A stretch of 64,000 nt of DNA from Methylobacterium sp. DB0501 (GTDB lineage Bacteria; Pseudomonadota; Alphaproteobacteria; Rhizobiales; Beijerinckiaceae), in contig NZ_JAAKGV010000001.1 in the NCBI RefSeq assembly GCF_011043735.1, positions 496,001 through 560,000 of the forward strand. Direction: 5' to 3'. The position numbers were made by a program, and so were the translations under genes. The notes beneath the pieces are model-generated. The model saw only the letters and a program-made list of their open reading frames with translations, was not told where the DNA came from and made no database searches. Below, one piece after another: positions 21,878 through 38,680 of the stretch (position 1 is its first letter; each line of letters opens with the position of its first letter).

Positions 21878-22094
21878 TTTTACCGCCGGCCGCCGAGAGC
21901 GAGGTCAAGCCCCGACCAGAGGTGCTCCCCAAGCCGGCATCGACCGCAATGTCCGCGCCGCTTAGAACCACGGCGAGCCAATCAGCCCGACGTCACAAGC
22001 GCTGTAGCCGCACACAATCGTCGGTCATCGCGATGACGACTGCAGGTCGGGCGACTAAGCTCGGGCCGCACCTCCTCATACAGAAAGAGGACTG

Positions 22095-23063: not shown

Positions 23064-23221
23064 CCCACACTACTTAAGGCCAAAGACGCGGCATACCTCA
23101 CGGCTGCCGACTTAGGAAGTAAGGCGCATATATACACCATCTTTACGTCTAGCCCGAAAATCTGATCTCGAATCTTTATGATCGTGCCTTTAGTTGGATT
23201 GCCGCCACCATGGAGGGCGGC

Positions 23222-23602: not shown

Positions 23603-23608
23603 GGCACA

Positions 23609-23761
23609 ATGATGAATCCAGAAGGCCTCCTGATGCTCCTGCTCATCATCGGCGGGTTGCTGTGGTTGAACATCTACCTCCGCGTAAAGCTGTTTCTGGC
23701 GAGCCGCCGGGACAGGCGCAAAGCAACAAAAGACCGCGGATCGGAGGAACGCTCCGCCTGA
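23609..23761 (+). CDS. Small single-pass membrane peptide
   Basis: An ORF of 50 codons shortly after the preceding gene. It reads MMNPEGLLMLLLIIGGLLWLN..., one strongly hydrophobic helix, followed by a basic cytoplasmic-type tail (SRRDRRKATKDRGSEER). Two adjacent ATGs (23609, 23612) could start it. Its composition and tight spacing fit a real short gene, but there is no family evidence. Confidence 0.45.
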   Translation: MMNPEGLLMLLLIIGGLLWLNIYLRVKLFLASRRDRRKATKDRGSEERSA

Positions 23762-23869
23762 AAAAATCGCAAACATGATTGGAGCAGCCGCGATCAACCT
23801 GAGAGCAAGCGAACTTCGATCAACGTCGCGGCTTCGATTGACCGTCCGCTCGGTTTCACGGAATGACCA

Positions 23870-24769: not shown

Positions 24770-24859
24770 TCGCCCCGTCAACCCATGCTGCGCGCCGCCG
24801 CCTGAGCTTCCTTCGGCTCATAAGGGCTTTTGCACCGACCTCGCCCAGGGTGCTATAGG

Positions 24860-25072
24860 ATGCCGCCCCTCAGCATTCTTTCCGCGGCCGTTAAGATCAT
24901 CGGCGTCTCAGGCCTGATCGGCCTGCTCGTGGCGGCTCATCATATACCAGCGGCCGCGACGCCGTTGCGCGCGGTCGCCTTGCTTTGGTTTCTTGCGCTC
25001 GGGATCATCTACGTTCTGATCCCGGGGAAACGAAGCGGGCGCTCCTTCCTTGGTCGCCGTCCATGGCGGTGA
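24860..25072 (+). CDS. Small two-helix membrane protein
   Basis: Encodes 70 residues from ATG 24860 (MPPLSILSAAVKIIG). Two hydrophobic helices lie at about residues 9-28 and 37-55, with a strongly basic C-terminus (PGKRSGRSFLGRRPWR). A longer in-frame start at 24830 adds only non-membrane residues and is less likely. It overlaps the next gene by ten bases. Unknown function; part of the run of small membrane proteins. Confidence 0.5.
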   Translation: MPPLSILSAAVKIIGVSGLIGLLVAAHHIPAAATPLRAVALLWFLALGIIYVLIPGKRSGRSFLGRRPWR

Positions 25073-25317
25073 ACAGCTTTCACGCTGATGTCGGCGACTG
25101 GATCCTCATGCTCGCGCGCTTCGCTTTGCTCGTGTCGCTAGTGGCGTTGTTCGTACGGCGACGCCAAGTCACACGAGGCATAATGGCGAAGCTCGACACG
25201 CTCGCGAAGTCTCGGCTCATCAACAAAGCCAAAGATCGGTCTGTAACCGAGGCTCCACAAGAACCTCTAGCTGGAGATCGAGGTCGGCTTAATGGATCTC
25301 AGGACGAGAAAGACTGA
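25063..25317 (+). CDS. Small single-pass membrane protein
   Basis: Encodes 84 residues from ATG 25063, which overlaps the end of the previous small gene. One transmembrane helix at about residues 13-30 is followed by a basic stretch (RRRQVTRGIMAKLDTLAKSRLINKAKD) and an acidic polar tail. The arrangement suggests an inner-membrane anchor with a cytoplasmic tail. No family recognised. Confidence 0.45.
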   Translation: MAVNSFHADVGDWILMLARFALLVSLVALFVRRRQVTRGIMAKLDTLAKSRLINKAKDRSVTEAPQEPLAGDRGRLNGSQDEKD

Positions 25318-25458
25318 AAGCGAAGATCTTAGACGAAGCTAATCTGCCCTAACGCAATATTTGCGCGGTTTGGCCCGATCATACGCCATCCTGATGTCGG
25401 TCGAGCTACCGTTCGTTGCATTGGCCTCGCGCGGCCGTGACCGGCGAGCCTTGGAGCA

Positions 25459-25809
25459 ATGATAGGGCACTCGCCGACCATGTGGGAAGCGGTCACGCGA
25501 TTCCGGTGGATGAGGTTGTTGCGTGAGCAGGATAGCCGCTCGCGGATACACCTCCGCGCGTTTTGCGGGCAAGTCGGATTGATCCTCCTACTCTGCGCAC
25601 CAACCTTTGCGCTCGATCATCGGCCGCCCTTTCTTTTCCTGTTCTTCGTGCATTTAATGTTTGCTGCATCCGCGCTCGTTCTCGTTGGGGTGGCGCTGGT
25701 CACGCGACAGCCAGTTTCGCGTACGAGCCTCTGCATGTGGGATCACGTCTTCGCCATGTTGCTCCTGATGCTGATCAGCTCCGCGGGACTCAGAATGCTG
25801 GTCAGCTAA
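25459..25809 (+). CDS. Hypothetical membrane protein
   Basis: Encodes 116 residues (start at 25459, or at 25480 with MWEAVTRFRW). A basic amphipathic N-terminus is followed by hydrophobic helices at about 44-58, 61-80 and 95-113. It ends the run of small membrane proteins behind corA. No family recognised; the composition fits a three-helix inner-membrane protein. Confidence 0.5.
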   Translation: MIGHSPTMWEAVTRFRWMRLLREQDSRSRIHLRAFCGQVGLILLLCAPTFALDHRPPFLFLFFVHLMFAASALVLVGVALVTRQPVSRTSLCMWDHVFAMLLLMLISSAGLRMLVS

Positions 25810-26091
25810 GGCCGTGCGCTCGCCGTTCTCAGCCAAATCGGGTTCACCGGGTTACGTAACACATCGCTCTGAGGCTCGCGGGGCGATTGACGGGGCTAGG
25901 GCCGCAGCCCATGGTCGCTTGGTTATGCAAGCGTCGAAGGCTCACGTCCGATTCTGCAATCGCGGGTGCCAGCTCATGTCGGGCTGTTAGCCCCGGGTCC
26001 GGACGTTCGCGTGCTGGGTTCGGGGTAAGGGCATAGCCCGATCCGCCACGCCTCGCCAGCGTTCGCAACCCTCACACTACGAGCCTTCGTC

Positions 26092-26520
26092 ATGACCCTT
26101 GTTAAAGCTGCCGCGCGCCCTCCCATTCATATGATCGACACCGAAGCCGATGCGCTGTCCGATCTCGGAATGCGTGCCCACGCCCGCCAGTCAGATGTTA
26201 GCCGCCTGTTGATGGCCGAGATCGAACGCGCCAGGATTCACACCGCCGAGGACATTCCTCCTGACGTCGTTACCATGCGTTCGACGGTCGAGTTTGTCGA
26301 TCAGGCAACCGGCACCCGTCGTACCGTCGAACTTGTCTACCCTGCCGAGGCCGATATTGCTGCGAACCGGATCTCCGTACTCACTCCTGTCGGCGCCGGG
26401 CTCATCGGCTTGCGCGAAGGTGACTCAATACTCTGGCCAGATCGCGATGGACACGAGCGCACGCTGAGCGTGGTCAAGGTGATACAACCGGTGCGAGGCG
26501 CGAAAGCAAAAGGTCGGTGA
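26092..26520 (+). CDS. rnk: Rnk-like nucleoside diphosphate kinase regulator
   Basis: Encodes 142 residues of the Rnk/GreA C-terminal type. A helical N-terminal segment (LSDLGMRAHARQSDVSRLLMAEIERA) leads into the GreA-like beta domain (VTMRSTVEFVDQATGTRRTVELVYPAEAD, ISVLTPVGAGLIGLREGDSILWP). Rnk proteins bind RNA polymerase's secondary channel region or influence nucleotide pools; they lack the long coiled coil of GreA. About 280 bp of non-coding DNA precede it, so it probably has its own promoter. Confidence 0.88.
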   Translation: MTLVKAAARPPIHMIDTEADALSDLGMRAHARQSDVSRLLMAEIERARIHTAEDIPPDVVTMRSTVEFVDQATGTRRTVELVYPAEADIAANRISVLTPVGAGLIGLREGDSILWPDRDGHERTLSVVKVIQPVRGAKAKGR

Positions 26521-26598
26521 TCGCGACCCCGGCGGCCGATTCGACCGCCTACTTGATGAGCCTAAGGCCGGCTGACGACCGAAGAGCTGCGATTGGCG

Positions 26599-27288
26599 TT
26601 ATTGCGCCGCTAGCTCTACGCGAGATCCAAAGGGTTTCAGCATTTGTTTGGCGGCAGGCCGCGCAGACATACGGTCGTACCAACCGCCCACCGAGGGCCG
26701 TTGCGGCACGTTTAGCCATGGCGTCTCTGGCCCGGCCGCAGCCATAAAGCCGTATAGAATGATATCCGCCATGCTCAAATTCTCGCCCGCAATGAAGGCC
26801 TTTTCCGCCATCTCATCGTCGAGCATGTTGAGCCCGCGTTCGGCGATCAGCCGGTTTGAGTGCATGGCTTCAAGCTGAAGGATTCGGTTGCCCCGATAGG
26901 CTTCGACCGCGATGTCCGACCCTCGGAACCATGCAACGAAATGGGAAATTATCTCCAAGTACATTCGCCGAGTCCACATGTGCACCTCAGCGCGCTCAAT
27001 GGGCGAGTTGCCGCACAGGTGCCGGCCACCTTGAGCGATTTCATCGAAGTAGCCGCAGATCGCCGTTATCTCGGTAATCACACGACCATCATCCAACCGG
27101 AGGGCTGGTAATTCTCCGCGAGCGTTTACGTTCTCGAGATACGGACGACGGCGGTTCTCTAGTGCGGCAAGGTCAATAGTCTCCACATCGAAAGAAAGCC
27201 CTCCACGCTCAAGTACAAAAAGGCGGACAGTGGTCGGGTTCGGTCCAGGTTGCTTGGCGTCATAAAAAATCAAGATCCATCTCCTCAT
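26599..27288 (-). CDS. Glutathione S-transferase family protein
   Basis: Encodes 229 residues from the ATG giving MRRWILIFYDAKQPGPNP; a longer frame to 27396 adds an implausible N-terminus. The thioredoxin-like N-terminal domain has VRLFVLERGGLSFDVETIDL and the glutathione-contact segment GELPALRLDDGRVITEITAICGYFDE. The helical C-terminal domain contains FIAGENLSMADIILYGFM, the usual GST N-capping region. Probable conjugation or detoxification enzyme. It is divergent from the AraC gene, which may control it. Confidence 0.88.
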   Translation of the reverse strand: MRRWILIFYDAKQPGPNPTTVRLFVLERGGLSFDVETIDLAALENRRRPYLENVNARGELPALRLDDGRVITEITAICGYFDEIAQGGRHLCGNSPIERAEVHMWTRRMYLEIISHFVAWFRGSDIAVEAYRGNRILQLEAMHSNRLIAERGLNMLDDEMAEKAFIAGENLSMADIILYGFMAAAGPETPWLNVPQRPSVGGWYDRMSARPAAKQMLKPFGSRVELAAQ

Positions 27289-27514
27289 CAAGACGCGACA
27301 CGGCGGTATGCTCCACCCCCTCGTCCTTGCCTTCCCGCACCCCAGTTTTCCGGAAGGCGACACATCCGTTAGAATGCAGGCCAGCGACAAAATCACCCGA
27401 TGCGCGGGAAAAAGGGCAAGTCCTCGGAAAACTTGAGCAAGATGTCGTATATCGACCTCATGCTCGCTAGCGTTGCGAAGATCAGTCCATTGTTGTCGAT
27501 TGGAAGCTTCGAAG

Positions 27515-28423
27515 ATGTATGATCCAGCTAGCCTGGCGTGTCAGAATGCACTCGGTGGTGTCGTCTTGGAAACGAGCCGGGCCGTAGGATGGCGCTCTCT
27601 GCTGGTCGAACGCCGGCGATGGACTGCGGGTGAGATCGAGCTAAGTGGGACGCCGTCGCCAGATCTCCGTCTCGCAGTAGCGTTAGGCCCGACGCATTAC
27701 GCCGAAGTGTTCTCAGCCGGGAAGTGGCGCGGTTCAAAAGTCCGCCGTGGCACAATCGGCGTTACGGCGCCCGGTGACACGGATCGGCTCCGGTGGAGCG
27801 CCCAAACAGCACTGGAAGCCACCAGCCTCTATATATCTCAAGCAATTCTTGCAGCGGCATCTGACCAGCTGCGAATATCGGGCGCTCATGGCGCGAACAT
27901 CGCAAGCGCGAAGCCTATTTTTGCGGATGCGGCGGTGACGGGCGTGGTAAGCAGCCTAATTTCCGGCATGCGACGCGGTGCTCCGGAAATTTATGCAGAG
28001 TCGTGCGTATGCTGGCTAGCGATGCATCTAATGTTGATGCACGGCAGGATTGATCCTCTGACCCATTTCGCAGGGCAGGAAGGCATCACCGACAAGCGCC
28101 TATTGCGCGCCGTGGACCTAATTCGAATGCGGTATGCCGAGAATCTCACCCTAGACGAGCTTGCGTCGGTAGCTTGTGTGAGCAAGTTCCACTTTTCTCG
28201 ACTGTTTAGGAAGCGGACTGGGCTGTCTCCCCACGCGTTTATCATGGAGGAACGAATGAAGACCGCTCGTGCCCTCCTGCTTGAGACTGATCTGCAGGTA
28301 GCCGAGGTCGCTCGGAGAGTTGGATACGCGCGTGCCTCAGCGTTCAGCGTTGCCTTCCGAAGCATAGTTGGCACTACGCCGTCTGATTTTCGCGTCGAGG
28401 CGCTACAATCAGACGTGACTTAG
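27515..28423 (+). CDS. AraC-family transcriptional regulator
   Basis: Encodes 302 residues from ATG 27515 (MYDPASLACQ); an in-frame start at 27473 would add 14. The N-terminal sensor domain is cupin-like. The C-terminal 100 residues carry two helix-turn-helix motifs (LTLDELASVACVSKFHFSRLFRKRTG and LQVAEVARRVGYARASAFSVAFRSIVGTTPSDFR), diagnostic of AraC/XylS. It is divergent from the GST gene and converges with the small gene at 28409. Confidence 0.93.
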   Translation: MYDPASLACQNALGGVVLETSRAVGWRSLLVERRRWTAGEIELSGTPSPDLRLAVALGPTHYAEVFSAGKWRGSKVRRGTIGVTAPGDTDRLRWSAQTALEATSLYISQAILAAASDQLRISGAHGANIASAKPIFADAAVTGVVSSLISGMRRGAPEIYAESCVCWLAMHLMLMHGRIDPLTHFAGQEGITDKRLLRAVDLIRMRYAENLTLDELASVACVSKFHFSRLFRKRTGLSPHAFIMEERMKTARALLLETDLQVAEVARRVGYARASAFSVAFRSIVGTTPSDFRVEALQSDVT

Positions 28424-28606
28424 AATAGCGACGAACGAGCGGAACGCGCCCTCCGCCTGCAGGCGCCGGCTTTCCGCTTCGAACACGCGGCATGCGCGCT
28501 TAAGCTCCTGCGGCCTAGCATCCGGCAGGGTTGCACGAAGGACATCCTCGACCTTCTCCGACCATTGGACGAGTGTTCGGGAAACATCAAAAGTGGTCGT
28601 TGCCAC
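28409..28606 (-). CDS. Small hypothetical helical protein
   Basis: Encodes 65 residues, mostly amphipathic helix (SRTLVQWSEKVEDVLRATLPDARPQELKRACRVFEAESRRLQAEG) with a hydrophobic end (FRSFVAILSHV). It overlaps the AraC 3' end by 15 bp in a convergent arrangement. The pattern recalls small helical-bundle proteins of the DUF3562 kind, but the match is weak. No catalytic residues. Confidence 0.5.
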   Translation of the reverse strand: MATTTFDVSRTLVQWSEKVEDVLRATLPDARPQELKRACRVFEAESRRLQAEGAFRSFVAILSHV

Positions 28607-28730
28607 GGCCTAAGTCCCTTCGCGACGGTCTTTATAGGCCATACGGTGCCGAGTGGCTCCCCAAGCCAATGTCGACTCCGTCGATCGGCAACTCCAGCGC
28701 ACGGACACGAACCGGAGGGCCCGCCTTGCA

Positions 28731-29471
28731 TCAGGCATTGAAACCGCCATCCGCCGTGATGGCGGACCCAGTCATAAAGCCGGCCGCGGGGCTCGCAAGG
28801 AAGCTCACGACCGATGCGATCTCATGTGGCTGGCCGACACGCTTGAGCGCAGTGAAGTCGATATTGACGTCGTTGAGCGCTCCATCGGCGGGGTTAAGGT
28901 CGGTCCTGATCGGCCCGGGCTGGACGAGGTTGACGGTGATGTTGCGGGTCCCAAGCTCGCGGGAGAGCCCGCGCGTGAGGGCAAGCTGCGCCGACTTGGT
29001 CACCGCGTACATCGTCAGCTGCGGAAACGGAACGCGCTCGGCGATGTTCGAGCCGATGAAGATGATGCGACCGCCCTCGGGCAGGTGCGGGATCACGGTC
29101 TGCGCCACCAGCACGGCGCCGCGGACATTGATATGCAGGAGGGTATCGATGTCGTCGAGGCTTAGCTCGGCAATCGTGCCGGTACGCGCGGTTCCGGCGT
29201 TGTTCACCAGGATGTCCAGACCGCCGAGCTTCGCGACCGCTTCTGCGACGAGACGCTTCACCGCTGCTGGATCAGCATTGTCGGCCTGGACCGCAAAGCC
29301 CCGCCGCCTTTTCGCTTCGATCTGTCGGACGATGTCCGCCGCGCTGTCGGCGTCGTTCTGATAGCTGAAGGCGACATCTGCGCCCTGGTTAGCCAGCTCG
29401 ACCGCGATCGCCGCGCCGATGCCGCGCGAACCGCCCGTCACCAGGGCGCGCTTGCCGTTGAGGTCAGTCAT
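28731..29471 (-). CDS. SDR-family oxidoreductase
   Basis: Classical short-chain dehydrogenase/reductase of 246 residues, NAD(P)-dependent. The cofactor glycine motif TGGSRGIG is at about residues 10-17, the NNAG structural motif is present, and the catalytic serine (IFIGS) and Tyr-x-x-x-Lys (YAVTK) are intact. The C-terminal PGPIRTDLNP and the GSAITADGGF end are typical of 3-oxoacyl-ACP reductase-like members. I start at ATG 29471. It is the promoter-distal gene of a minus-strand run. Substrate unknown. Confidence 0.92.
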   Translation of the reverse strand: MTDLNGKRALVTGGSRGIGAAIAVELANQGADVAFSYQNDADSAADIVRQIEAKRRRGFAVQADNADPAAVKRLVAEAVAKLGGLDILVNNAGTARTGTIAELSLDDIDTLLHINVRGAVLVAQTVIPHLPEGGRIIFIGSNIAERVPFPQLTMYAVTKSAQLALTRGLSRELGTRNITVNLVQPGPIRTDLNPADGALNDVNIDFTALKRVGQPHEIASVVSFLASPAAGFMTGSAITADGGFNA

Positions 29472-29540
29472 GGATGATCTCCGGTATTGGCGGCGTGCGA
29501 GCCGCGAGTGTGTTAGATGAAGCAAGCGCTCGACGGCGGA

Positions 29541-30563
29541 TCAGTCGGCCCGGACAATCAGCTTCTTGCCGCTGTGGCTGCCGTCGAAAAGCTTCAGGAA
29601 GGTTTCGGGCAGGCTCTCGAAGCCTTTGATGAATTCCTCGCCGTAGATGATCCTGCCGCTCGTCACCAACGGCGTCATTTCCGCGAGGAATTCTGGAAAC
29701 GTGTCCAGCACGTAAGGCGTCGCGAACGCCTTGATGCTGACGAAGCGGTAGTGGATCAGCGTGATCATCCGAGGCAGATAGTTGGTGCCCTTAGGCAGCT
29801 CGGTGTCGCTGTAATCGGCGATGGTCCCGCAGAGCGTCATCTTCGCGTCAGTGTTGAAATGCTCCATCAGCACCGGGAAAAGCGGGCCGCCGACATTCTC
29901 GAAAAACGCGTCGATGCCGTTGGGCAGTGCGCGGGCAACCTGCTGCTCAAGGTCGTCGGCCTTGTAGTCGATCGCTTCATCCAGGCCGAGCTCGCGCTTG
30001 AGGAAAGCCACCTTCTCCGGTCCGCCGGCTACACCGACGACGCGAAAGCCCCGCAGCTTGCCGAGCTGCGCCGCGGTCGAGCCCACCGATCCCGCCGCAC
30101 CGGTGACGACCAGCGTGCCGCCGGGCTTGAAGTCGTGGACCTTGGTCATGCCGTACCAGGCGGTGAAACCGGTAAGGCCGAGAGGCCCGAGCGCGGTCGA
30201 GAGGGGCGCGATATTCGGATCGAGCTTGCGAAGGTCGGAGCCGTCCGACACCGCATAGTCCTGCCAGCCCGTCCAGGTCTGGACGTGATCGCCCACCGCG
30301 AAGTCCGGGTTGCGGCTCTCCTCGACCACCGCCACCGTCGGCCCGCCCATCGGATCGCCGATCTCGATGACCGGCCATTCGGACGAGCCGTTGCCCATCA
30401 GGTTGCGCTGATAGGGATCGATCGAGAACAGCGTGTTGCGAAAGAGCACCTCGCCGTCCTTCGGCGACGGGATCGCGCTTTCCACGAGCTCGAAGTCGCT
30501 GAGCCTGGCCTGGCCCTGGGGGCGGGCGGCGAGCGTGAACTGGCGGTTGGTCTTCCTCGTCAT
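29541..30563 (-). CDS. NADP-dependent medium-chain (zinc-free) reductase
   Basis: Medium-chain dehydrogenase/reductase of 340 residues in the leukotriene B4 dehydrogenase/curcumin reductase (CurA-like) group, which reduces alpha,beta-unsaturated ketones or aldehydes with NADPH. Evidence: the opening RQFTLAARPQG, LFSIDPYQRNLM, GLTGFTAWYGM, and the Rossmann motif TGAAGSVGS at about residues 151-159. No zinc ligands are seen, as expected for this group. It shares the minus-strand run with the SDR and NTF2-like genes. Confidence 0.92.
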   Translation of the reverse strand: MTRKTNRQFTLAARPQGQARLSDFELVESAIPSPKDGEVLFRNTLFSIDPYQRNLMGNGSSEWPVIEIGDPMGGPTVAVVEESRNPDFAVGDHVQTWTGWQDYAVSDGSDLRKLDPNIAPLSTALGPLGLTGFTAWYGMTKVHDFKPGGTLVVTGAAGSVGSTAAQLGKLRGFRVVGVAGGPEKVAFLKRELGLDEAIDYKADDLEQQVARALPNGIDAFFENVGGPLFPVLMEHFNTDAKMTLCGTIADYSDTELPKGTNYLPRMITLIHYRFVSIKAFATPYVLDTFPEFLAEMTPLVTSGRIIYGEEFIKGFESLPETFLKLFDGSHSGKKLIVRAD

Positions 30564-30608
30564 GCGAAATTCCTCGTGAAGCTTGATCGTTGAATGGCGT
30601 TACGGCGC

Positions 30609-31058
30609 TCAGCTCAGCGCGGCGATCAGCGCCGTGTCTTTGTTGGTGAAATCCGGGTCGACATAGATGCGCACGGCACGGATCAGGTCGCCGTCGAACT
30701 CGAAGACGTTGCAAAACAAGCCCTGGGAGATCTCGCCGTCCGGGAACGGCGTGCCGTCTGACGTCTCGCCCCACTCGCGCCCCTCGACCGCGATCGTGTC
30801 GCCGGCTTCGATGAAGGACAGGCCGTCGATGTCGTGCTCGAGCCTGCGCAGCACCTTCGCCATGCGGATCGTGAAGGTGCGCACTGCCTCCTTGCCGATC
30901 GCCGTGCCGAACTTGGGATAGGTCAACCGGATATCGTCGGTGTACAGGTCAAGGACGCGGGTATCGGCGGCATCGGCATAGCGGAAGAACTGCCGGATCA
31001 TATCGCGCCGGTCGGTGGAGTCTGGGTTCGCCACTGCGGCTCTCCTGTCGACGCTCAC
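30609..31058 (-). CDS. NTF2/SnoaL-like protein
   Basis: Encodes 149 residues with the NTF2-like alpha+beta cone-fold pattern: an N-terminal helix (MIRQFFRYADAADTRVLDLYTDDIRLTYP), a middle strand region (VEGREWGETSDGTPFP) and the terminal curved sheet (LFCNVFEFDGDLIRAVRIYVDPDF). Family members are isomerases, dehydratases or binding proteins. The function here cannot be set. It is the first of three such genes in this cluster and overlaps the VOC gene by four bases. Confidence 0.82.
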   Translation of the reverse strand: MSVDRRAAVANPDSTDRRDMIRQFFRYADAADTRVLDLYTDDIRLTYPKFGTAIGKEAVRTFTIRMAKVLRRLEHDIDGLSFIEAGDTIAVEGREWGETSDGTPFPDGEISQGLFCNVFEFDGDLIRAVRIYVDPDFTNKDTALIAALS

Positions 31059-31504
31059 GCGTCCTGGATGATCTCGATGAGGTTGCCCCAGGGATCGGCG
31101 AAGAAGCCGCCGCGTCGCCGGATCGGCTCATATTCGAGTGGGCCGGCGACGATCGTCACGCCGCGCCGCCCGAGCTCGGCAAGCGTGTCCTCGATGCTGT
31201 CGACCTTGAGGCAGAGATGGTGCCAGCCCCGCTGACCGAGTGAGGCCTCGATCTCCCCCGCTCCCGGGCGGTCGACGGCGCCGGGGCCAGCCGCGATCTC
31301 GATCTGGAAATCGTCGTCGTCCGGCGGCGCGAGGAAGCCCCACTTCAACCCGACCGCCTCGGTGGTGGCGGTCAGCCGGAAGTCGAGCTTCTCGGTGTAC
31401 CAGGCAACGGCTGCGTCGAAATCGGGCACGCGCACGCCGGCATGGTCGCCGCGCATCGACGCGAGCGGGCTGGACGGCTTTCGGGGCGGTGAGAACAGCG
31501 CCAT
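31055..31504 (-). CDS. VOC-family (glyoxalase/dioxygenase fold) protein
   Basis: Encodes 149 residues of the vicinal oxygen chelate fold. The opening RGDHAGVRVPDFDAAVAWYTEKLDFRL and the closing GGFFADPWGNLIEIIQ are the paired beta-alpha-beta motifs that carry metal ligands: His in DHAGV, Glu in NLIEI, and another His in HHLCLKV. With metal ligands retained, it is probably a metal-dependent lyase, epimerase or dioxygenase acting on a pathway intermediate. It is translationally coupled to the NTF2-like gene downstream. Confidence 0.88.
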   Translation of the reverse strand: MALFSPPRKPSSPLASMRGDHAGVRVPDFDAAVAWYTEKLDFRLTATTEAVGLKWGFLAPPDDDDFQIEIAAGPGAVDRPGAGEIEASLGQRGWHHLCLKVDSIEDTLAELGRRGVTIVAGPLEYEPIRRRGGFFADPWGNLIEIIQDA

Positions 31505-31506
31505 CG

Positions 31507-31899
31507 TCAGGCGCTCAGCTGCCGGGCGACCGCCTCGGCATCATGGATCGCCGCCATGTGCTTGAAGCGGCCGTCGATCACCTGATAGACGGCATATTCG
31601 ACGACCTCGAACGAGGCGCCGGTCGGCTCGACACCAACGAAGGTCTTGGCCGGGGTGCCAGTGTTCACGAGCTGCGCGCCGAGCCGGTCGCCGTCGATGA
31701 TGAGGTTCGTCAGCTCCCAGTGAAGGTCTGGAACCGCGCCGGCCTCTTCCCGCTGCACCGCGAGGATGTCCTCGCGGGTGGCCGGCTTGCCATTGAGGGT
31801 GACCTCGTCATGGATGAATGTGTCCATGACATCGAAGTCCCTGGCATTCAGGGCGGCAATGTAGCGATCGTAGAAATCGCGCAGGTCTGGGTTCGACAT
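31507..31899 (-). CDS. SnoaL-like ester cyclase family protein
   Basis: Encodes 130 residues (start MSNPDLRDF; a start four codons earlier is possible). The sequence follows the SnoaL-like plan: [32 protein letters not shown], then [27 protein letters not shown] and [21 protein letters not shown]. The central [22 protein letters not shown] segment corresponds to the catalytic region of SnoaL-like cyclases. It ends two bases before the VOC gene begins. It is one of three SnoaL/NTF2-type genes here. Confidence 0.85.
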
Positions 31900-31941
31900 T
31901 GTTATCTCCATTGATCGGTCAGGTGGAAGCTTGCTGGATTC

Positions 31942-32598
31942 TCAGCTTGACGGTTGTCCGGGGCGGTGCGCGCGGGCGAGATTGGCGACCAGCTCGGCTC
32001 GGGTCTGAGCACTCTGCTTCCAGGCGGGCTGGCCCGGGCGGGTCCGCCAGGATTCGCTGAGAGGGCTGTTGTCGACGTTGTCGAAGCCGAACTGGTCGTA
32101 GAGCCGCGCGACGATCGCGACGGCCTCGGGAAAGTTGCTGGACGCGGACAGCGCCAGCCGGTCGGGTGCCCCGGAGGGTTTACCCCAGGTCAGAATCCGC
32201 GGCGCCTGGATGTGGGTGAACGCCTTCACCACCTTCGAAGCGGGGAGCTGCTCCTGCCGCAGCTCGTGCTCGGTCTTCTCGCCCGAGTCGACGATTCCGT
32301 AGTTGCCGTCGCGCCACGGCATATAGTTGTTGGTGTCGATCACGACCTTGCCCGCGAGCGCATCAGCCGGCATGTCGTTGACCAGCTTGAGCGGCGCCGC
32401 GACGACGACAAAATCGCCGGCGGCAGCGGCTTCCGCCGCCGTGGCAGCGCGCGCCGCCGGACCGAGTTGTTCGACGAGATCGGCCAACGTCTCGGGCCCG
32501 CGCGAGTTGGCGAGCACGACCTCATAGCCGCTGGCGATCGCCGCACGCGCGATATGACTGCCGACCTCGCCCGCGCCGATGATGCCGATGGTGGTCAT
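31942..32598 (-). CDS. NADP oxidoreductase, coenzyme F420-dependent-like fold
   Basis: Encodes 218 residues starting with a perfect dinucleotide motif (IGIIGAGEVGSHIARAAIASGYEVVLANSRGP). DTNNYMPWRDG and SKVVKAFTHIQAPRI follow, typical of the F420:NADP oxidoreductase-like family that in most bacteria uses other partners. Probably an NADP-linked reductase. It overlaps the next upstream gene by four bases (stop of one, start of the other), so the two are co-translated. Confidence 0.87.
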   Translation of the reverse strand: MTTIGIIGAGEVGSHIARAAIASGYEVVLANSRGPETLADLVEQLGPAARAATAAEAAAAGDFVVVAAPLKLVNDMPADALAGKVVIDTNNYMPWRDGNYGIVDSGEKTEHELRQEQLPASKVVKAFTHIQAPRILTWGKPSGAPDRLALSASSNFPEAVAIVARLYDQFGFDNVDNSPLSESWRTRPGQPAWKQSAQTRAELVANLARAHRPGQPSS

Positions 32599-33560
32599 GC
32601 GGCCCCGACCAGCGCTTCGCTCCTGGCCCAGAGCTGCCGCGCCTTTCCCTCATCGAGCGCATAGGAGCGCACGCCATCGGCGAAGGGGTTGGGCGTGTCG
32701 TCGACTGTCGCAACACGGACATCTTCGAGATACCTACCGCCGATCTCGTCTCCGTCTGCAACGACCGCGGCCCAGACCGTCGTCGCGGCCGCCTGACCGA
32801 CGTCCTTCAGTTCCGCTGGCGGCAGCCCCGCCTCGGCGCGCGCATTGCCCACGGTCTGGAACAGGCCGTTCAGCTCCTCTTCGCTGAAGTTGCGGGGAAG
32901 GTCGGTCAGGCTGTTGCCGGGCATGACCGCGGCCGCGCGGATGCCGCGGGCTCGATGGCGGCGGTCGAACTCGACGGCGAACAGCGCATTGGCCGTTTTC
33001 GACCGGCCATAAGCGACGAACGGCTCGTATTCCTGCCGCTCGAAATTGGGATCGTCCAGATCCACGTCCGCGACGCGATGCGCCTGCGACGACAGCACCA
33101 CGAGGCGGCCGCCGTCGACAAACAACGGCTCGATCCGGGTGACGAGCGCGAAGTGGCCGAGGTGGTTGGTCCCGAACTGCGTCTCGAAGCCGTCGGCGGT
33201 CCTGCCAGCGGGCGTTGCCATTATGCCGGCATTGGCGATGATGGCATCAAACCGGCGGCCGTCGGCGAGCAGCCTGTCCGCGGCGGCCCGAACACTCGCC
33301 AACGACGCAAGGTCGAGCTCGATCAGTTCGAGGCTGCCGCCGGCGGTTTCGGCCTCCTTAAGGACCGGCACCGTCGCCGCCTCCGCCTTTGCGATGTCTC
33401 TCACCGCGCCGACGACGCTGGCGCCGCGCGCGACCAGCGCCCGCGCCGTCTCCAGCCCGATCCCCGACGAGATGCCCGTGATAAGGTAGCGCTTTCCCGA
33501 AAGATCGATACCGGCGAGGACCTCGTCGGCGGTCGACCGGGCGTTGAAATTGTCTGTCAT
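32595..33560 (-). CDS. SDR-family oxidoreductase (retinol dehydrogenase-like)
   Basis: Atypical-length SDR of 321 residues. Cofactor motif TGISSGIGLETAR is near residues 28-40, NAGIM is present, and the active-site pair Tyr-x-x-x-Lys appears in YGRSKTAN. It resembles retinol dehydrogenase/WW-domain-type SDRs. Start ATG 33560 gives MTDNFNARSTADEVLAG; a longer frame is antisense to the control region. It is the first gene of the minus-strand run, divergent from the TetR gene across a shared operator. Confidence 0.9.
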   Translation of the reverse strand: MTDNFNARSTADEVLAGIDLSGKRYLITGISSGIGLETARALVARGASVVGAVRDIAKAEAATVPVLKEAETAGGSLELIELDLASLASVRAAADRLLADGRRFDAIIANAGIMATPAGRTADGFETQFGTNHLGHFALVTRIEPLFVDGGRLVVLSSQAHRVADVDLDDPNFERQEYEPFVAYGRSKTANALFAVEFDRRHRARGIRAAAVMPGNSLTDLPRNFSEEELNGLFQTVGNARAEAGLPPAELKDVGQAAATTVWAAVVADGDEIGGRYLEDVRVATVDDTPNPFADGVRSYALDEGKARQLWARSEALVGAA

Positions 33561-33612
33561 TTTCACTCCTGCTGACCATCGCGCCAGTGAGCCAACCCCG
33601 GCCATCCGATAA

Positions 33613-33688
33613 CATAACGGACATTACGATAATGACTGTTACGGAATCTGGACAAACAGAGTCAAGCGGTTTAGTAATGACCGTTATG
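33613..33688. promoter_or_regulatory. Candidate TetR operator between the SDR and TetR genes
   Basis: Between the divergent genes lies a dyad at 33613-33643: left arm CATAACGGACATTA, spacer CGA, right arm TAATGACTGTTACG. The inner CATTA/TAATG is perfect. The half-site recurs at 33675-33688 as TAATGACCGTTATG, a near-perfect inverse of the first left arm (one mismatch). This clustered arrangement is what is expected of an autoregulated TetR operator controlling both directions. Confidence 0.65.
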
Positions 33689-33708
33689 AAAAGTGGGGAG
33701 CCGACCTG

Positions 33709-34290
33709 ATGGGACGTCGTCGTGAGTTCAATGAGGTGGAAGTGCTCGACGCCGTGCTCCCGGTTTTCTGGCGAAAGGGCTATGAAGGCACGTCCTATGC
33801 CGATCTGGTCGATGCGGCCGGCGTGGAGCGGCCGGCGCTCTATTCGGCGTTCGGAAACAAGGAAGCGCTCTTCCGCAAGGCGCTGGCCCGCTATGAGGAG
33901 CTGTATCTCCACTATATTCCCGAGGCGCTCGAGCTGCCTACGGCGCGTGACGTCGCGGCGCACTTCCTGCGCAGCACGGTCGAGCTCAATACGCGTTTTG
34001 AGGATCGCACCGGCTGTCTGGGCATCAATGGAGCAATGGCGGGCGGCGAAGAGGCCGAGCCGGTGCGCCAAGCGCTGGTTGCGTTTCGCGCAGCCGGCCA
34101 GCAGCGCTTCCGCGAGCGCTTCGAAAGCGCCAAGGCGGAGGGTGATTTGCCCGAGGCCGCGGACCCCGCCGTGCTGGCCGCCTACGTCATGACGGTCAGC
34201 CAGGGGATCGCGGTGCAAGCCAAGGCCGGGGGCTGCCGCGCGCTGCTGCACGCGGTGGCGGAACAGGCGCTGGCGTCCTGGCCGACGTAG
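33709..34290 (+). CDS. TetR-family transcriptional regulator
   Basis: Encodes 193 residues. The N-terminal helix-turn-helix is clear (LDAVLPVFWRKGYEGTSYADLVDAAGVERPALYSAFGNKEALFRKAL). The C-terminal domain (TGCLGINGAMAGG, AAYVMTVSQGIAVQAKAGG) is of the type seen in regulators of oxidoreductase clusters. It is divergent from the SDR gene with the candidate operator between, so local repression of the whole oxidoreductase block is likely. Confidence 0.93.
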   Translation: MGRRREFNEVEVLDAVLPVFWRKGYEGTSYADLVDAAGVERPALYSAFGNKEALFRKALARYEELYLHYIPEALELPTARDVAAHFLRSTVELNTRFEDRTGCLGINGAMAGGEEAEPVRQALVAFRAAGQQRFRERFESAKAEGDLPEAADPAVLAAYVMTVSQGIAVQAKAGGCRALLHAVAEQALASWPT

Positions 34291-34366
34291 GTCGGCACGC
34301 GCGGCGACCCTGCCCGAATGCGCGCGGAACTCACCCTGGGATTGCGTGCGGAGCGGCGTGACTGGA

Positions 34367-34930
34367 TCAGTTCTCGGGAACCGGCACGTCGAACGCGTTC
34401 AGCAGAATGCAGATCACGGTGTAGCTGGCGACCAAGAATGCGAGTTCGCCCACACCTTCGTTGCCAAACAGCGCTCGTGCCTGTTCGTAGGTCGAGGCGG
34501 GCACCGAGCCGCCGCCGGTCGCCGCCGTCACGAAGTCGAAAGCGGCAGCCTGCATCTCGTCGAGATCCGGCGGACGCTGGCCGGCGGCGATCGCCGCGAT
34601 CAACGGTCTCGGCAATCCTGCCTCCACCGCCATCTTCTCGTGGGAATAGAGTTCGTATCGCGCCTTGAAGCGCGCGCCGACCGCCAGGATCACCACCTCC
34701 CGCACCGTCTCCGGCAGGGTCGCGCCTCCGACCAGCGAGTCGAGAAACGCGAACGCCGGCGCGCCGAACCGCGGGAAGTGCAGCAGCGCCGGGAACGGAC
34801 CGATCAGCGCGCCGTCCGCGTCCTGCGAGGCGAAGGCCGACAGGCTTCGTCCCATGCGCTCGACGATCGCGTCGTGCAGGGCACGCACCTCCGGTGAAAG
34901 ATCATTGGGCGGGATCGGCGGCAGGCGCAT
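34367..34930 (-). CDS. Carboxymuconolactone decarboxylase-family protein without CxxC
   Basis: Encodes 187 residues with the CMD/AhpD-like helical fold (LSPEVRALHDAIVERMGRSL, HFPRFGAPAFAFLDSLVGGATLPETVREVVILAVGARFKARYELYSHEKMAVEAGLP). The pair of cysteines that makes AhpD a peroxidase helper is replaced by YELYSHEK. This points to a decarboxylase-like or other non-redox member. It lies between the TetR and LysR genes, six or so bases downstream of the LysR gene on the same strand. Confidence 0.85.
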   Translation of the reverse strand: MRLPPIPPNDLSPEVRALHDAIVERMGRSLSAFASQDADGALIGPFPALLHFPRFGAPAFAFLDSLVGGATLPETVREVVILAVGARFKARYELYSHEKMAVEAGLPRPLIAAIAAGQRPPDLDEMQAAAFDFVTAATGGGSVPASTYEQARALFGNEGVGELAFLVASYTVICILLNAFDVPVPEN

Positions 34931-34939
34931 GGCGGATCC

Positions 34940-35836
34940 TCAGGGCTGACCGGGAAAATGGTCGCGGATCAGCGCTGCGACATGGGCGACGGCGACGTCG
35001 CCCTGCGCGCGATTGGCGACGGCGAGGTGCAGCGGAAAACCCTCGACCGCGATCGGCGGCTCGCAATAGTGCAGCTCGGGTTCGTGATGCATGCACGCGC
35101 GCGGCAGCATGGCGATGAGGTCGCTGGCCAGCAGCAGCGGCGGCACCATCAGGAAACTCGGCACGGTGATCCCGACCCGCCGCCTGCGTCCGAGCAGCGC
35201 GAGCTGGTCGTCGAGCGGCGTGCGGCGGCTCCCGCGCGCCGAAAGGACGACGTGCGGAAAAGCGAGCCAGCGGTCGAGATCGAAGTCCTGCGCCGCCGGA
35301 TGCCCGCGCCGCATGGCGACGCAATAGCGCTCGACATAGAGTTCGGTGCGCACGAATCCGCTGCCGGCCTGCGGCAGAACCGAGATGGCGACGTCGGCCT
35401 GGTCGCGCGCGAGCGCATCGATAACGTCCTCGCTCTCGCGCCAGTGCAGCAGCACCAGGCTGATGCCCGGCGCGGTGCGTCGGGTCTGCTCCCACAGGAT
35501 CTGGAGCAGCGTGAGCGCGGGAATATCGGTGGAAACGATGCGGACCGTGCGCTCCACCGTGGCCAGTTCATCAGGCGGGGCGCCAATCACAGCGCGAGCC
35601 TGTGTCAGCAACGCGCGGATCGGCTCGCGTAGTGCCTGTCCGCGCGCGGTGAGTTCCATCCCCCGGCCGGCGCGCACGAGGAGACGATCACCGAACAGCT
35701 TGCGACACCGGTCGAGCGCGCCCGAGACCGAGGGCTGGGCCATGCCGAGCCGGCGCGCCGCGCTGACGAGCTTGCGCTCCTCGAGCACGACATCCAGCAC
35801 GACCAGAAGATTCAGATCGACATCCCTAAGGTCCAT
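34940..35836 (-). CDS. LysR-family transcriptional regulator
   Basis: Encodes 298 residues. DNA-binding head: MDLRDVDLNLLVVLDVVLEERKLVSAARRLGMAQPSVSGALDRCRKLFGDRLLVR. The effector domain follows (LLQILWEQTRRTAPGISLVLLHWRESEDVIDALARDQADVAIS). The opening resembles NodD/SyrM-like LysR members. It is divergent from the Dabb-hydrolase-SnoaL genes, with a perfect T-N11-A dyad between, and probably responds to their substrate. Confidence 0.93.
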   Translation of the reverse strand: MDLRDVDLNLLVVLDVVLEERKLVSAARRLGMAQPSVSGALDRCRKLFGDRLLVRAGRGMELTARGQALREPIRALLTQARAVIGAPPDELATVERTVRIVSTDIPALTLLQILWEQTRRTAPGISLVLLHWRESEDVIDALARDQADVAISVLPQAGSGFVRTELYVERYCVAMRRGHPAAQDFDLDRWLAFPHVVLSARGSRRTPLDDQLALLGRRRRVGITVPSFLMVPPLLLASDLIAMLPRACMHHEPELHYCEPPIAVEGFPLHLAVANRAQGDVAVAHVAALIRDHFPGQP

Positions 35837-35909
35837 GTGACGAGGCTATCTGCCAATCGGCCGTGACGATAGACGGAACGCGGATCATCGCCGCTGTCGA
35901 TTGTCCGAT

Positions 35910-35924
35910 ATAGGCCACGCCTAT
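35910..35924. promoter_or_regulatory. LysR-type T-N11-A box
   Basis: A perfect dyad ATAGGC-CAC-GCCTAT, with T at position 2 and A at position 14 (T-N11-A), lies in the 147-bp divergent gap, about 74 bp from each start. This is the textbook form and placement of a LysR recognition site. Confidence 0.6.
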
Positions 35925-35983
35925 CGATCCCATCCGCTCTCGCGACGTTTACGGTTCAAGATCAATCGCCGGAGTACGCAGTC

Positions 35984-36388
35984 ATGATTTTTCATTCGAT
36001 CCGCTTCCAGTTGAAGGAGAGCGTGACGCCGGAGCAACTCGATCCCGTGCTCAAGCAGTTACACAAGATGGGCACCGAGATTCCGGTCATTCAGACTTAC
36101 TGCGTCGGCCGCGATATCGGCGGTGACTTCGACTATGGCGCCACCTTCGTCGTCAAGAACATCGACGACTACAAGACCTACATGCATTCGCCGATCCACC
36201 GGAAGGTGGACGAGATCGGCCTGCCGCTGGTGGTCGACATGGTCTCGTTCGACGTCACCGACGAGGAGGACCCAACCATCCCCGACCAGATCAAGGCGAT
36301 CCACAAGGAGCGGTTCGAAAGCGACCCAGCGCTCGCCAAGCTGGTGCAGGGCCTCAAGTCCTACTCCGGTAGCAGCAGGCCGGAGTGA
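35984..36388 (+). CDS. Dabb-family (stress responsive A/B barrel) protein
   Basis: Encodes 134 residues with the dimeric alpha/beta-barrel pattern: HSIRFQLKESVTPEQLDPVLKQL, then GRDIGGDFDYGATFVVKNIDDYKTYMHSPIHRKV, and VDMVSFDVTDE. Some Dabb proteins are cyclases or decarboxylases acting on polyketide-like or aromatic compounds, others have no known activity. It is the first gene of a plus-strand operon; the stop overlaps the next gene's GTG start. Confidence 0.85.
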   Translation: MIFHSIRFQLKESVTPEQLDPVLKQLHKMGTEIPVIQTYCVGRDIGGDFDYGATFVVKNIDDYKTYMHSPIHRKVDEIGLPLVVDMVSFDVTDEEDPTIPDQIKAIHKERFESDPALAKLVQGLKSYSGSSRPE

Positions 36389-37566
36389 ACGCGATGGCGA
36401 AGCCCGTGCTCACCGCCACCGGCGGTGGCTACGCCCCGGACGGCTGGAAGCAGTGGCCCGAAGACGAGGAGTTCTCGGCCCAGTTCGTCCGCATCCTGGC
36501 CGCCGCGCAGGACGGCGCGAGCACGGTCGGCGAGTGCTTCCAGACGGCGGGCCGCATCCAGTCGGGCGATCGCGATGGCTGGCACGAGTCCTGGCTCACG
36601 CCGGCGGAACGCTCCGTTTCGCGCGCCGAAGCGGCCGAGGCCGCCGGTCATCGCCTGACTGCCCGTGCCAACTGGATCCGCGCGGCCAACTATTTTCGAA
36701 CCGCCGAATTCTTCCTCGACCCGGCCGATCCCCGGCGCCTTTCGACATTCGACCGGATCGAGGCCTGCTCGCAGCGCGCGCTCACCTTGTTCGAGCCGGC
36801 CGGCGAGATCGCGCGCATCCCCTATGAAGATGGCACACATCTCGACGCCTATTTCCTGATCGCACCGGGCGAAGGGCGCCGCCCGGCGGTGATCGCCTTC
36901 GGCGGCCTCGACGAATATAAGGACGAGCTGATCCAGGAGATGGAGCGCTATGCGCTCGCCCGCGGCCTCTCGCTGCTGCTGGTCGACCTTCCCGGACAGG
37001 GTGGAACGCTGCGTCGGGAGGGAATCACCGCGCGACCGGACACCGAGGTGCCGGTGGGGGCCTGCATCGATTGGCTGCTTGGCCGCGATGATGTCGATCC
37101 CGGTCGGATCGGGGTCTACGGCGCGAGCCTGGGGGGCTATTACGTCACCCGCGCCGCCGCGCGCGAGCATCGCGTGGCCTGCGCCGTCTCAGACGCGGCG
37201 CAGTGGAAGGTGGCAAAGTCGGCGCAAGCGCTGTTGGCGCAGCCCAACAGCATGACGGCAGTGCTCTCGCGCTGGGTGTTCGGCGCGCGTGACATGGAGG
37301 AGTTGGTCACCGTCACCGAGCCGTTCGATCTCGAAGGCGTGGTCAAGGATATAGCCTGTCCCTTCCTAATCGTGGCGGGTGAGCTCGACAGCTTCGGCAC
37401 CCACAACGCCGAGAGCGTATATGCAGAAGCCAAGGCGGCGGGCGTCGACGTGACGATCAAATGGTTTTCGCCCGAAGAGACCGGGGCCGCGCATTGCCAG
37501 ATCGACAATCCGACCATCGGCATGGAGCTGATCTGCGACTGGCTCGCCGATCGGCTGGGGCGTTGA
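36385..37566 (+). CDS. FrsA/DUF1100-like alpha/beta hydrolase
   Basis: Encodes 393 residues (GTG 36385 or ATG 36394). A helical N-terminal lid domain (residues about 20-140, with ANYFRTAEFFLDPADPRRLSTFDR) precedes the hydrolase core. The core carries the nucleophile motif GASLGG with Ser248, the acid in AGELDSFGTHN and the histidine in TGAAHCQIDNP. This lid-plus-core plan is shared with esterase FrsA and with 2,6-dihydroxypseudooxynicotine hydrolase, a carbon-carbon bond hydrolase, so it may cleave a diketone or ester intermediate. It lies between the Dabb and SnoaL-like genes. Confidence 0.85.
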   Translation: MNAMAKPVLTATGGGYAPDGWKQWPEDEEFSAQFVRILAAAQDGASTVGECFQTAGRIQSGDRDGWHESWLTPAERSVSRAEAAEAAGHRLTARANWIRAANYFRTAEFFLDPADPRRLSTFDRIEACSQRALTLFEPAGEIARIPYEDGTHLDAYFLIAPGEGRRPAVIAFGGLDEYKDELIQEMERYALARGLSLLLVDLPGQGGTLRREGITARPDTEVPVGACIDWLLGRDDVDPGRIGVYGASLGGYYVTRAAAREHRVACAVSDAAQWKVAKSAQALLAQPNSMTAVLSRWVFGARDMEELVTVTEPFDLEGVVKDIACPFLIVAGELDSFGTHNAESVYAEAKAAGVDVTIKWFSPEETGAAHCQIDNPTIGMELICDWLADRLGR

Positions 37567-37571
37567 GCACC

Positions 37572-38015
37572 ATGTCCGAAACCACTCTCGTCACGCTTGC
37601 CGAACGCTGGCGGCTGCTTTGGAACGGGGATCTGGCGCTGGGACGCGAGATCATCGCCGACGACTTCGTCGCCCATGCCGCGCCTATGACCGGATCGGGC
37701 GATGACCTCATTCGGGGACGTACGGCGCTCGAAGCCTGGATCTCAGGCATTCACGAATTGCTCGACGAGCTCGCCTTCACCTACGAGCTGGGGCCGATCA
37801 CCCAGGGCAACCTGATGGCGGTGCGCTGGCGCGCGCGGGGCTGCTATCGTGGCGGCTTTCCCGGCAGTCCACCCGAAGCGATCGGCCGCGCGGTGACCTT
37901 CACCGGCACCGACAGCCTACGCACAGAAGATGGCTGCATCGTCGAATATTGGGGCAACGCAGACAGCCTGCTGTTCGTCCAGCAACTCGGTGTTCAGACG
38001 ATGCCGGGCTACTAG
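37572..38015 (+). CDS. SnoaL-like polyketide cyclase-type protein
   Basis: Encodes 147 residues from ATG 37572, five bases after the hydrolase stop. SnoaL-type plan: LAERWRLLWNGDLALGREIIADDFVAHAAPMTGSG, then MAVRWRARGCYRGGFPGSPPEAIGRAVTFTGTDSLRTEDGCIVEYWGNADSL. The central segment (RWRARG...FTGTDSLR) corresponds to the SnoaL catalytic region. It ends the Dabb-hydrolase-SnoaL operon and is the last gene before the tRNA junction. Confidence 0.87.
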   Translation: MSETTLVTLAERWRLLWNGDLALGREIIADDFVAHAAPMTGSGDDLIRGRTALEAWISGIHELLDELAFTYELGPITQGNLMAVRWRARGCYRGGFPGSPPEAIGRAVTFTGTDSLRTEDGCIVEYWGNADSLLFVQQLGVQTMPGY

Positions 38016-38061
38016 CGACTCGCGCTACCCAATAGGGCCGCCACAGCGATGACTCGAACTG

Positions 38062-38145
38062 CATGCCGCTATCGGCCGCCGTATCCGCTGCGCTGGCGTA
38101 CTCCCGGCGACGTTAGAGCAGGATACGGCGGCGAACGGCGGTATG
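38062..38145. repeat. 25-bp imperfect inverted repeat abutting the tRNA
   Basis: Arms at 38062-38086 and 38121-38145 match at about 20 of 25 bases, with a perfect 12-base core (GCCGCCGTATCC / GGATACGGCGGC) and a 34-base loop. The right arm ends one base before the CCA-complement of the tRNA gene. A repeat in this place is what an ICE terminus or recombinase arm site would look like. Confidence 0.7.
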
Positions 38146-38222
38146 TGGCGCACCCGACACGATTCGAACGTGTGGCCTCCACCTTCGGAGGGTGGCGCTC
38201 TATCCAGCTGAGCTACGGGTGC
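38146..38222 (-). tRNA. tRNA-Arg (anticodon CCG)
   Basis: A complete tRNA gene read on the minus strand, 77 bases with the encoded CCA. Acceptor stem GCACCCG/CGGGTGC, D-arm AGCTCAGCTGGATAGAG, anticodon stem CCACC/GGTGG around the loop CTCCGAA (anticodon CCG, arginine CGG codons), T-arm ACACG-TTCGAAT-CGTGT with the invariant T54, and discriminator G. It is intact, unlike the two broken copies nearby. A typical integration target for ICEs. Confidence 0.95.
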
Positions 38223-38680
38223 ATTATGCTTACGCGGTGCTTACGCGAAAAATCTTAGAGTTGAAAGCGCCAACCTCGGTGCTCTCAAAGTGCTGTATTT
38301 CAAGTGTTTTTCGAACTCCTTCTCACAATCGTTCCGCTTGACATCAGCCTTCGGAGGGCAACGCTCTATCCAGCTGAGCTACGGGTGCTGACCGCGAAGC
38401 CTCTGTAGCCCGGCTCCGCCCGGAGCGCAACAGGGAAAGGGATCGGGCGTCCGCTCAAGGGGATCCGGGCGAAGGCTCCTGCGGCAAAGGTCACACGGTC
38501 GAATCGTGTCGGGTGCGCAGGGGGAGGGGAGGCGAGGGCTGGAAGGGGCCGGCAATGTTCCCCGGTTGTGGACGGCGTGCGGCGCGGCTGACGCCGCGTG
38601 CCGCTGGTGTGCCGGCTGAGCCTGTGCTGATCTGACGTCGCCGTCGTGATGGCCGATGGAATGCGAGGAGCGCAGCAGGC
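38223..38680. other. Non-coding junction between tRNA and cas3 remnant
   Basis: No gene is visible. The first 120 bases (38223-38345) are the less GC-rich upstream side of the tRNA-Arg gene. The rest is repeat copy 1 and 70 bases leading into the cas3 start. Open frames here, including a long minus-strand one ending near 38366, arise from the repeat and reappear at the second copy. Confidence 0.6.
38346..38609. repeat. tRNA-derived direct repeat, copy 1
   Basis: Segment of about 264 bp that recurs at 50107-50362 in the same orientation. At its left end (38346-38388) is a minus-strand tRNA-Arg 5' half that stops at the anticodon loop. About 100 bp later (38492-38519) is a plus-strand tRNA-Arg 3' half with T54 changed to G and no CCA. 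The inner ends carry inverse AGCCTTCG/CGAAGGCT. A GC hairpin closes the right end (about 38575-38605). Neither half can form a tRNA in this arrangement. Confidence 0.8.

Follow-up and report, generated by a model that had tools for sequence, protein, structure and literature searches.

A conjugative element in Methylobacterium that splits a host tRNA-Arg(CCG) gene and carries a complete tRNA-Arg(CCG) of its own

The stretch of 64,000 nucleotides analyzed here (the window; G000:C1:496001-560000 in a draft genome of 7.58 Mb and 86 contigs) contains the right part of a conjugative element (ICE) of about 74.8 kb, which very probably split the tRNA-Arg(CCG) gene of its host at the anticodon loop and carries its own complete replacement tRNA. 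This best explains the observations as a whole, and the sequence tests proposed by an earlier sequence-only reading, which had suggested the same, bore it out. According to the proposed mechanism, a tyrosine integrase would have put the element into the anticodon loop of the host gene and, because the attachment site shares only a 12-bp core, integration has cut the gene and neither end rebuilds it. The lost function would then be replaced by the complete tRNA-Arg(CCG) of the element, the only intact gene with a CCG anticodon that was found in a genome using CGG frequently, while excision should bring the two cut ends together again and so re-create the native gene.

Results

The split host gene and its empty site

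The intact tRNA-Arg(CCG) beside the junction was recovered by both ARAGORN and Rfam, and 166 bp upstream of it, on the same strand, lies a second tRNA-Arg 5' half which stops at the anticodon loop, as had been noticed from the letters of the sequence (Table 1). The two are linked by a 50-nt repeat at spacing 166 with 86% identity, while a 19-nt probe from the 3' part of the tRNA (up to 3 mismatches) gave four matches in the window, three of them exact, against 0.11 expected by chance. Upstream of the broken half a possible host promoter was recognized, with the hexamers TTGCGC (38425-38430) and TACAGA (38402-38407) read by eye and separated by 17 bp.

The matching native 3' half, predicted to lie at the left end of the ICE outside the window, was found by a search with the junction DNA at G000:C1:459539-459585, on the same strand and 74.8 kb to the left. 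It begins at the anticodon loop, includes the core CCCTCCGAAGGC (C1:459574-459585) and continues into a 3' flank similar to the one that follows intact tRNA-Arg(CCG) genes of relatives; its stem is that of the broken half and not that of the intact tRNA in the window. The unoccupied site was present in the relative G012 (L016) as an intact tRNA-Arg(CCG) gene. The two own halves, joined inside the core, were identical to this gene over 77/77 bases, about 90 bp upstream were similar and the downstream gene was the same, so that the empty-site comparison came out as proposed. The 12-bp core thus lies inside the host tRNA gene, which is rebuilt at neither end of the ICE. The anticodon is CCG both in the element tRNA (ARAGORN) and in the native gene (joined halves), while the anticodon stems are CCACC/GGTGG and TTGCC/GGCAA, respectively; since both strands of the stem differ, the element tRNA is not the native gene rebuilt. 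With native halves at both ends and an intact tRNA of a different stem, the structure is not that of a 3'-restoring tDNA island.

Table 1. Features of the element and its right junction (positions in the window)
Feature	Positions	Strand	Remarks
Right part of the ICE	1..38346		Starts left of the window at G000:C1:459574; conjugation genes
VirB4/TrbE-like conjugation ATPase (TraG P-loop, CagE_TrbE_VirB)	1341..3797	+	Pfam
TrbL/VirB6-like protein	4831..6330	+	Pfam
CagX/TrbG/VirB9-like protein	6263..8059	+	Pfam
TrbI/VirB10-like protein	8056..9276	+	Pfam
Imperfect inverted repeat (25 bp), a hairpin adjoining the 3' end of the element tRNA	38062..38145		Arms 38062-38086 / 38121-38145
Intact element-borne tRNA-Arg(CCG)	38146..38222	-	ARAGORN; Rfam 67.1 bits; anticodon stem CCACC/GGTGG
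Compact leader (element end) from the broken half to the intact tRNA	38223..38346	-	Conserved element end
Paired repeat GCGTAAGCA-cc-GCGTAAGCA	38227..38247	-	Probable integrase arm-type sites, ~101 bp from core
Native tRNA-Arg(CCG) 5' half	38346..38388	-	Stem strand TTGCC
12-bp core CCCTCCGAAGGC	38347..38358	-	Anticodon loop and inner stem; common to the left end
Upstream region of the native tRNA gene	38389..38450	-	Resembles upstream flank of the intact G012 tRNA-Arg(CCG)

The inverted repeat beside the tRNA had been taken for a feature of the ICE end. The repeat itself stood up to inspection, its arms being 80% complementary with 34 nt between them and touching the 3' end of the tRNA, but as an ICE end it was rejected: it was kept in only 1 of 16 other aligned related right ends, that of a Brevundimonas (L196). 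A single other match, a 28-nt piece, was obtained for it in the own genome at E <= 0.1.

Gene content of the element

The ends of the ICE are set by the two native tRNA halves. The gene of the tyrosine integrase (G000:C1:459764-461125), with Arm-DNA-bind_3 and Phage_integrase domains (Pfam), starts 178 bp from the left core. Pfam agreed with the earlier placement of conjugation genes to the left of the junction (Table 1), and a relaxase-type protein (Relaxase, DUF3363) and a coupling protein (T4SS-DNA_transf) were also encoded between the ends. The cargo includes KdpA, a KdpB-like ATPase, a KdpD sensor and a CorA transporter at 12917-23063, as well as ImuB-like and DnaE-like polymerases. The 25 element ORFs scanned with Pfam had conjugation and cargo domains and no phage structural domain of the kind that would mark a temperate phage. 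By its gene content the element is best classified as an ICE: it combines a site-specific integrase near one end with a relaxase, a coupling protein and mating-pair genes of a Trb-type T4SS, between defined ends whose empty site occurs in G012.

Need of the host for the element tRNA

Rfam gave 68 tRNA matches in the own genome, 67 of them outside the window, and ARAGORN was run on 49 stretches covering these 67 matches and one further weak place. The only Arg anticodons called outside the window in these 49 loci were ACG (2) and TCT (1). No CCG or TCG anticodon was called elsewhere in the draft assembly, in an inventory in which tRNA-Ile and tRNA-Arg(CCT) were also uncalled and which is thus incomplete, as expected for a draft with collapsed repeats; at the weak places L108 and L109 ARAGORN called no gene. 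In native-like genes of the region (GC3 >= 0.9), 244 of 650 Arg codons were CGG. Because the CCG anticodon of the element is the sole one found in the draft and CGG is frequent, the host likely needs the element tRNA, and it apparently relies on the element to decode one common codon.

Two other explanations were weighed against a split gene replaced by an element-borne tRNA. An ordinary island, in which the ICE ends at the 3' end of the tRNA at 38146-38222 and rebuilds this gene by its own 3' half, with the broken half an unrelated relic, would follow the usual behavior of tyrosine-integrase islands in tRNA genes, which mostly restore the gene (Islander; passages of PMC4383910). The intact tRNA does adjoin the ICE genes, and the related island of genome G008 (see below) looks like this. 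Such an origin is nevertheless extremely improbable, given that the left 3' half agrees with the broken half in its stem and has a native-like flank, that the empty site matches the joined broken halves, and that the DNA to the right of the intact tRNA (38223-38346) is a conserved element end with arm-like sites. An ICE end at the 3' end of the tRNA, which the sequence-only reading had kept as the simpler alternative, was ruled out by the stem and flank of the left half together with the match of the G012 empty site to the joined halves. We consider it quite unlikely, too, that the structure is as described while the element tRNA is dispensable owing to an unassembled second copy or to another tRNA that reads CGG. 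The incomplete inventory of the 86-contig draft and a further intact copy in two related hosts (G080 and G118) would agree with dispensability, whereas the completeness given as 100, the lack of any CCG or TCG call elsewhere and the fact that relatives whose gene is intact had no further host-type copy, among the matches listed, speak against it.

The family of related elements

From 248 integrase relatives in the genome contig database the best 80 were kept, most of them from Alphaproteobacteria; among these best 80, one Brevundimonas, one Roseicella and two Sphingomonas records had 100% integrase identity. The anticodon-loop core was located 178-184 bp before int in 79/80 left ends, and 73/80 ran into a tRNA 3' half readable by eye (partly masked in L174). 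The exceptions were tandem junctions (L142, L158 and L160), a degraded half (L154), positions at a contig edge (L134 and L175) and one left end without core (L183). For the right ends, 77 host genomes (31 + 46) were searched for 5' halves, with L179, L187 and L190 (viral contig) left out. In 61/77 of them and in the own genome, a broken 5' half has an intact tRNA-Arg(CCG) on its strand 166-303 bp further downstream; these family counts are linked by common descent and not independent.

In the remaining 16/77 genomes the arrangement was missed by the script. Five of them (G104, G116, G132, G134 and G135) had an intact host-type gene. Inspection by eye revealed the arrangement on a divergent host half in G112 and the same right end with a partner other than the host half in G110 and G124. 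Apart from the five with an intact host-type gene, the 16 genomes, which also include G068, G069, G085, G088, G111 and G137, had contig ends (as in G089 and G113), tandem junctions, a divergent host half or no usable match. Since G080 and G118 possess, besides the arrangement, a further intact tRNA-Arg(CCG), the copy of the element is not the sole one in every host. Additional pattern matches on other contigs were obtained in G092, G093, G108, G125 and G131. A broken half with an intact tRNA-Arg(CCG) of the host-type CTGCC stem 179 bp downstream was also observed in G057 (L017, G057:C2:369769-370024).

In a class sample of 289 genomes drawn evenly from the class, the exact host-type stem pattern was present in 129 and absent in 160, while the NNACC/GGTNN stem type occurred in three (G000, G179 and G352), in G352 without a close integrase. 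The integrase was detected at E <= 1e-100 in 8/289 genomes. No exact host-type match was found in the genomes with an integrase of at least 70% identity (G000, G179 and G277; 3/289), while it was present in 5/5 of those with 50-63% identity (G008, G219, G297, G399 and G403). The missing host-type match next to a close integrase is support but not proof, because 160/289 genomes lack the pattern anyway. G008, whose integrase is 50% identical, has an intact host-type tRNA and, at a distance of 18 kb and next to the integrase, a 3' copy of 47 bp; we infer that this island, which shares with the ICE both the tRNA and the anticodon-loop site, rebuilt its tRNA. Related integrases thus seem to use the same anticodon-loop site in a restoring way.

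A small element was seen in G179 (L274 and L275; G179:C12:431414-445649), where integrase and intact tRNA-Arg(CCG) are only about 14 kb apart. With its CTACC stem and a 291-bp leader beside a broken half, it has the same design and is probably not self-transmissible.

Changes in the anticodon stem

The loop CTCCGAA and full pairing of the stem were kept in 62/62 element tRNAs, while the inner stem GCC/GGC, which is part of the core, was changed in 54/62 and kept in 8/62. The changed stems were CCACC (30), CTACC (15), TCGGC (6), CACCC (1), TTGGC (1) and ACGGC (1). GCC was present in 62/62 host halves, the search pattern itself favoring C at positions 30-31. The changes affect pair 29-41 or 30-40 in the usual tRNA numbering, with three different base-pair solutions.

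We tentatively propose that the altered but paired stem may keep the integrase of the element from cutting the replacement gene, and that such changes could shield it from this integrase family; shielding would explain why stems in the core region are altered but still paired. A rival cause for part of the changes is descent from few ancestors, and the 8 element tRNAs with a host-type inner stem, like the left end L187 described next, speak against shielding. Retargeting was encountered once in an unshielded element tRNA (G084) and once in a tRNA of the GGTGG type, in which the left end L187 lies. In the G084 case (L208) arm-like sites precede even the broken 5' half. It therefore seems that the insertion target of one element was the replacement tRNA of another, with a stem that had kept the host-type GCC.

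Leaders, arm-type sites and the promoter of the element tRNA

Two main types of leader separate the broken half from the element tRNA: a compact one with a spacing of 166-167 bp (26 genomes) and a long one with 281-303 bp (35 genomes), besides a single one of 209 bp. A paired motif of the GCGTAAGCA kind occurs about 101 bp after the core in 27/27 compact and 34/35 long rows, and was not found in the 209-bp leader. At the other end, paired GCTTAC precedes int in 50/80 left ends, compared to 2 occurrences in 331 kb of other DNA from the same loci. These paired motifs are probable arm sites of the integrase.

TTGAC was located 39-41 bp before the tRNA in 35/35 long leaders and in the 209-bp leader, and at that position in 0/26 compact ones, including the window ICE, whose tRNA follows directly after the arm-like sites. 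As the motif was chosen after viewing the leaders and these (29 distinct long and 17 distinct compact) are related by descent, a Fisher test of TTGAC against leader type overstates the association. Consensus promoter and terminator scans found nothing, not even the promoter of the host gene; the best promoter-consensus score in long leaders was no better than in shuffled sequences, and it failed to separate compact from long leaders, which only the positional TTGAC did.

The nearest evident promoter to the element tRNA is that of the interrupted host gene. Because the compact tRNA follows the arm sites directly and without TTGAC, our preferred reading, at about even chances, is expression by read-through, in which the promoter of the interrupted host gene would drive transcription across the broken half into the element tRNA. 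That compact leaders instead have an own non-consensus promoter and need no host promoter is a fair-sized possibility, although we incline slightly away from it. A TTGcg about 57 nt from the core is conserved in compact leaders and could belong to such a promoter, but the long leaders, which have their separate TTGAC by the tRNA, conserve a TTg at this offset too, and for this reason it looks like a part of the attachment site. The compact-type tRNA of L158 (167 bp), which lies not beside a host half but in a tandem junction, likewise favors an own promoter; its genome (G108), on the other hand, has another element tRNA beside the host half, and the tandem copy therefore need not be expressed.

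In the tandem junctions L158 and L142 the element tRNA, with a TCGCC stem, adjoins the integrase end of another element and not a host half; it is 167 and 197 bp from the core, respectively, with no TTGAC before it.

DNA to the right of the broken half

Two features in this region had been missed earlier: an inverted degenerate tRNA 3' half at ~38486-38520 (+) and, at 50113-50285, another broken 5' half in identical surroundings. They are included in a direct repeat of about 260 bp (38346-38606 and 50113-50370), which comprises the broken 5' half, the upstream region and a degraded antisense tRNA-Arg. An origin of the inverted 3' half by inversion of one tRNA was considered and dropped, as relatives have the degraded antisense copy upstream of an intact gene. 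Since several relatives (G005, G020, G024, G027, G036 and others) have this copy in front of an intact tRNA-Arg(CCG), it looks old in the genus.

Between the repeats lies an 11.8-kb island (38520-50112), and the second 5' half is broken at the same anticodon loop, with the tail GGTGGAGGAC. The DNA to the right of the broken half is another island and not plain chromosome, and probably older than the ICE. Similar broken halves in G036, G019 and G023 suggest elements which bring a new 5' half with promoter, and not a 3' half. Other observations in this region were a Cas3-type HD domain protein (38681-39415; weak Pfam match) near IS transposases, with no cas genes among the four neighboring ORFs scanned with Pfam, and an ALIL pseudoknot (Rfam; 42667-42783) at the start of an rve-type transposase ORF.

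Discussion

The closest known parallel is the tRNA-dependent lysogeny defined for the actinobacteriophages Fionnbharth, LeBron and Gaia (passages of PMC10865867). The ICE shares with it a short core within a host tRNA and a gene which is rebuilt at neither end; judged by the genes scanned, it would work like tRNA-dependent lysogeny but is not a phage. Those systems are phages of Actinobacteria, while the present one is a conjugative element with relatives mostly in Alphaproteobacteria. For Fionnbharth, the same passages describe a tRNA that shares sequence with another phage gene and is served by a promoter of its own, which was tested. Compared to the actinobacteriophages, the tRNA of the ICE sits at an almost fixed position next to the attachment site, shares its strand with the broken half and has a changed anticodon stem.

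Closer by host are prophages of Sinorhizobium meliloti which split tRNA-Leu(UAG): according to the passages of PMC11476347 that describe them, they share with the ICE an alphaproteobacterial host, a disrupted tRNA and a tRNA-like replacement gene, but concern a prophage, another tRNA and two strains. The anticodon-centered islands of Islander (passages of PMC4383910) resemble the ICE in their tyrosine integrase and the crossover at the anticodon loop; they restore the gene from a fragment, while the ICE leaves the split gene as it is and supplies a complete one. No comparable ICE was seen in the open-licence literature searched, among the matches listed, including the passages available from PMC8963497, PMC9262613, PMC8371274, PMC9174649, PMC9513070 and PMC12429752. 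One of these (PMC9174649) names a bipartite symbiosis ICE that Bradyrhizobium NK6 carries at tRNA-Arg, in passages that do not mention splitting of the tRNA. Features that look new are the division of TTGAC between long and compact leaders and the paired stem changes which alter the integrase core.

A wider scheme is conceivable but rather unlikely in all its parts: an ICE family spread across many alphaproteobacterial genera would bind its hosts by owning the tRNA that reads CGG, the compact tRNA would lack an own promoter and be switched on only after correct insertion behind the promoter of the interrupted host gene, and the stem would have been rebuilt several times, through paired changes at 29-41 or 30-40, into a working tRNA that is a poor target for this integrase family.

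The finding extends tRNA-dependent integration from phages to conjugative elements, and 61 further genomes from many genera share this design, while a close integrase is rare in the class sample (3/289). Island finders that look for a restored tRNA and a fragment would misplace such islands. The stem changes offer a testable natural case of a tRNA which must translate and yet not be an attachment site. Where the element tRNA is the only copy, a host in which it is lost or damaged other than by clean excision should die, which would amount to stabilization of the element without a toxin.
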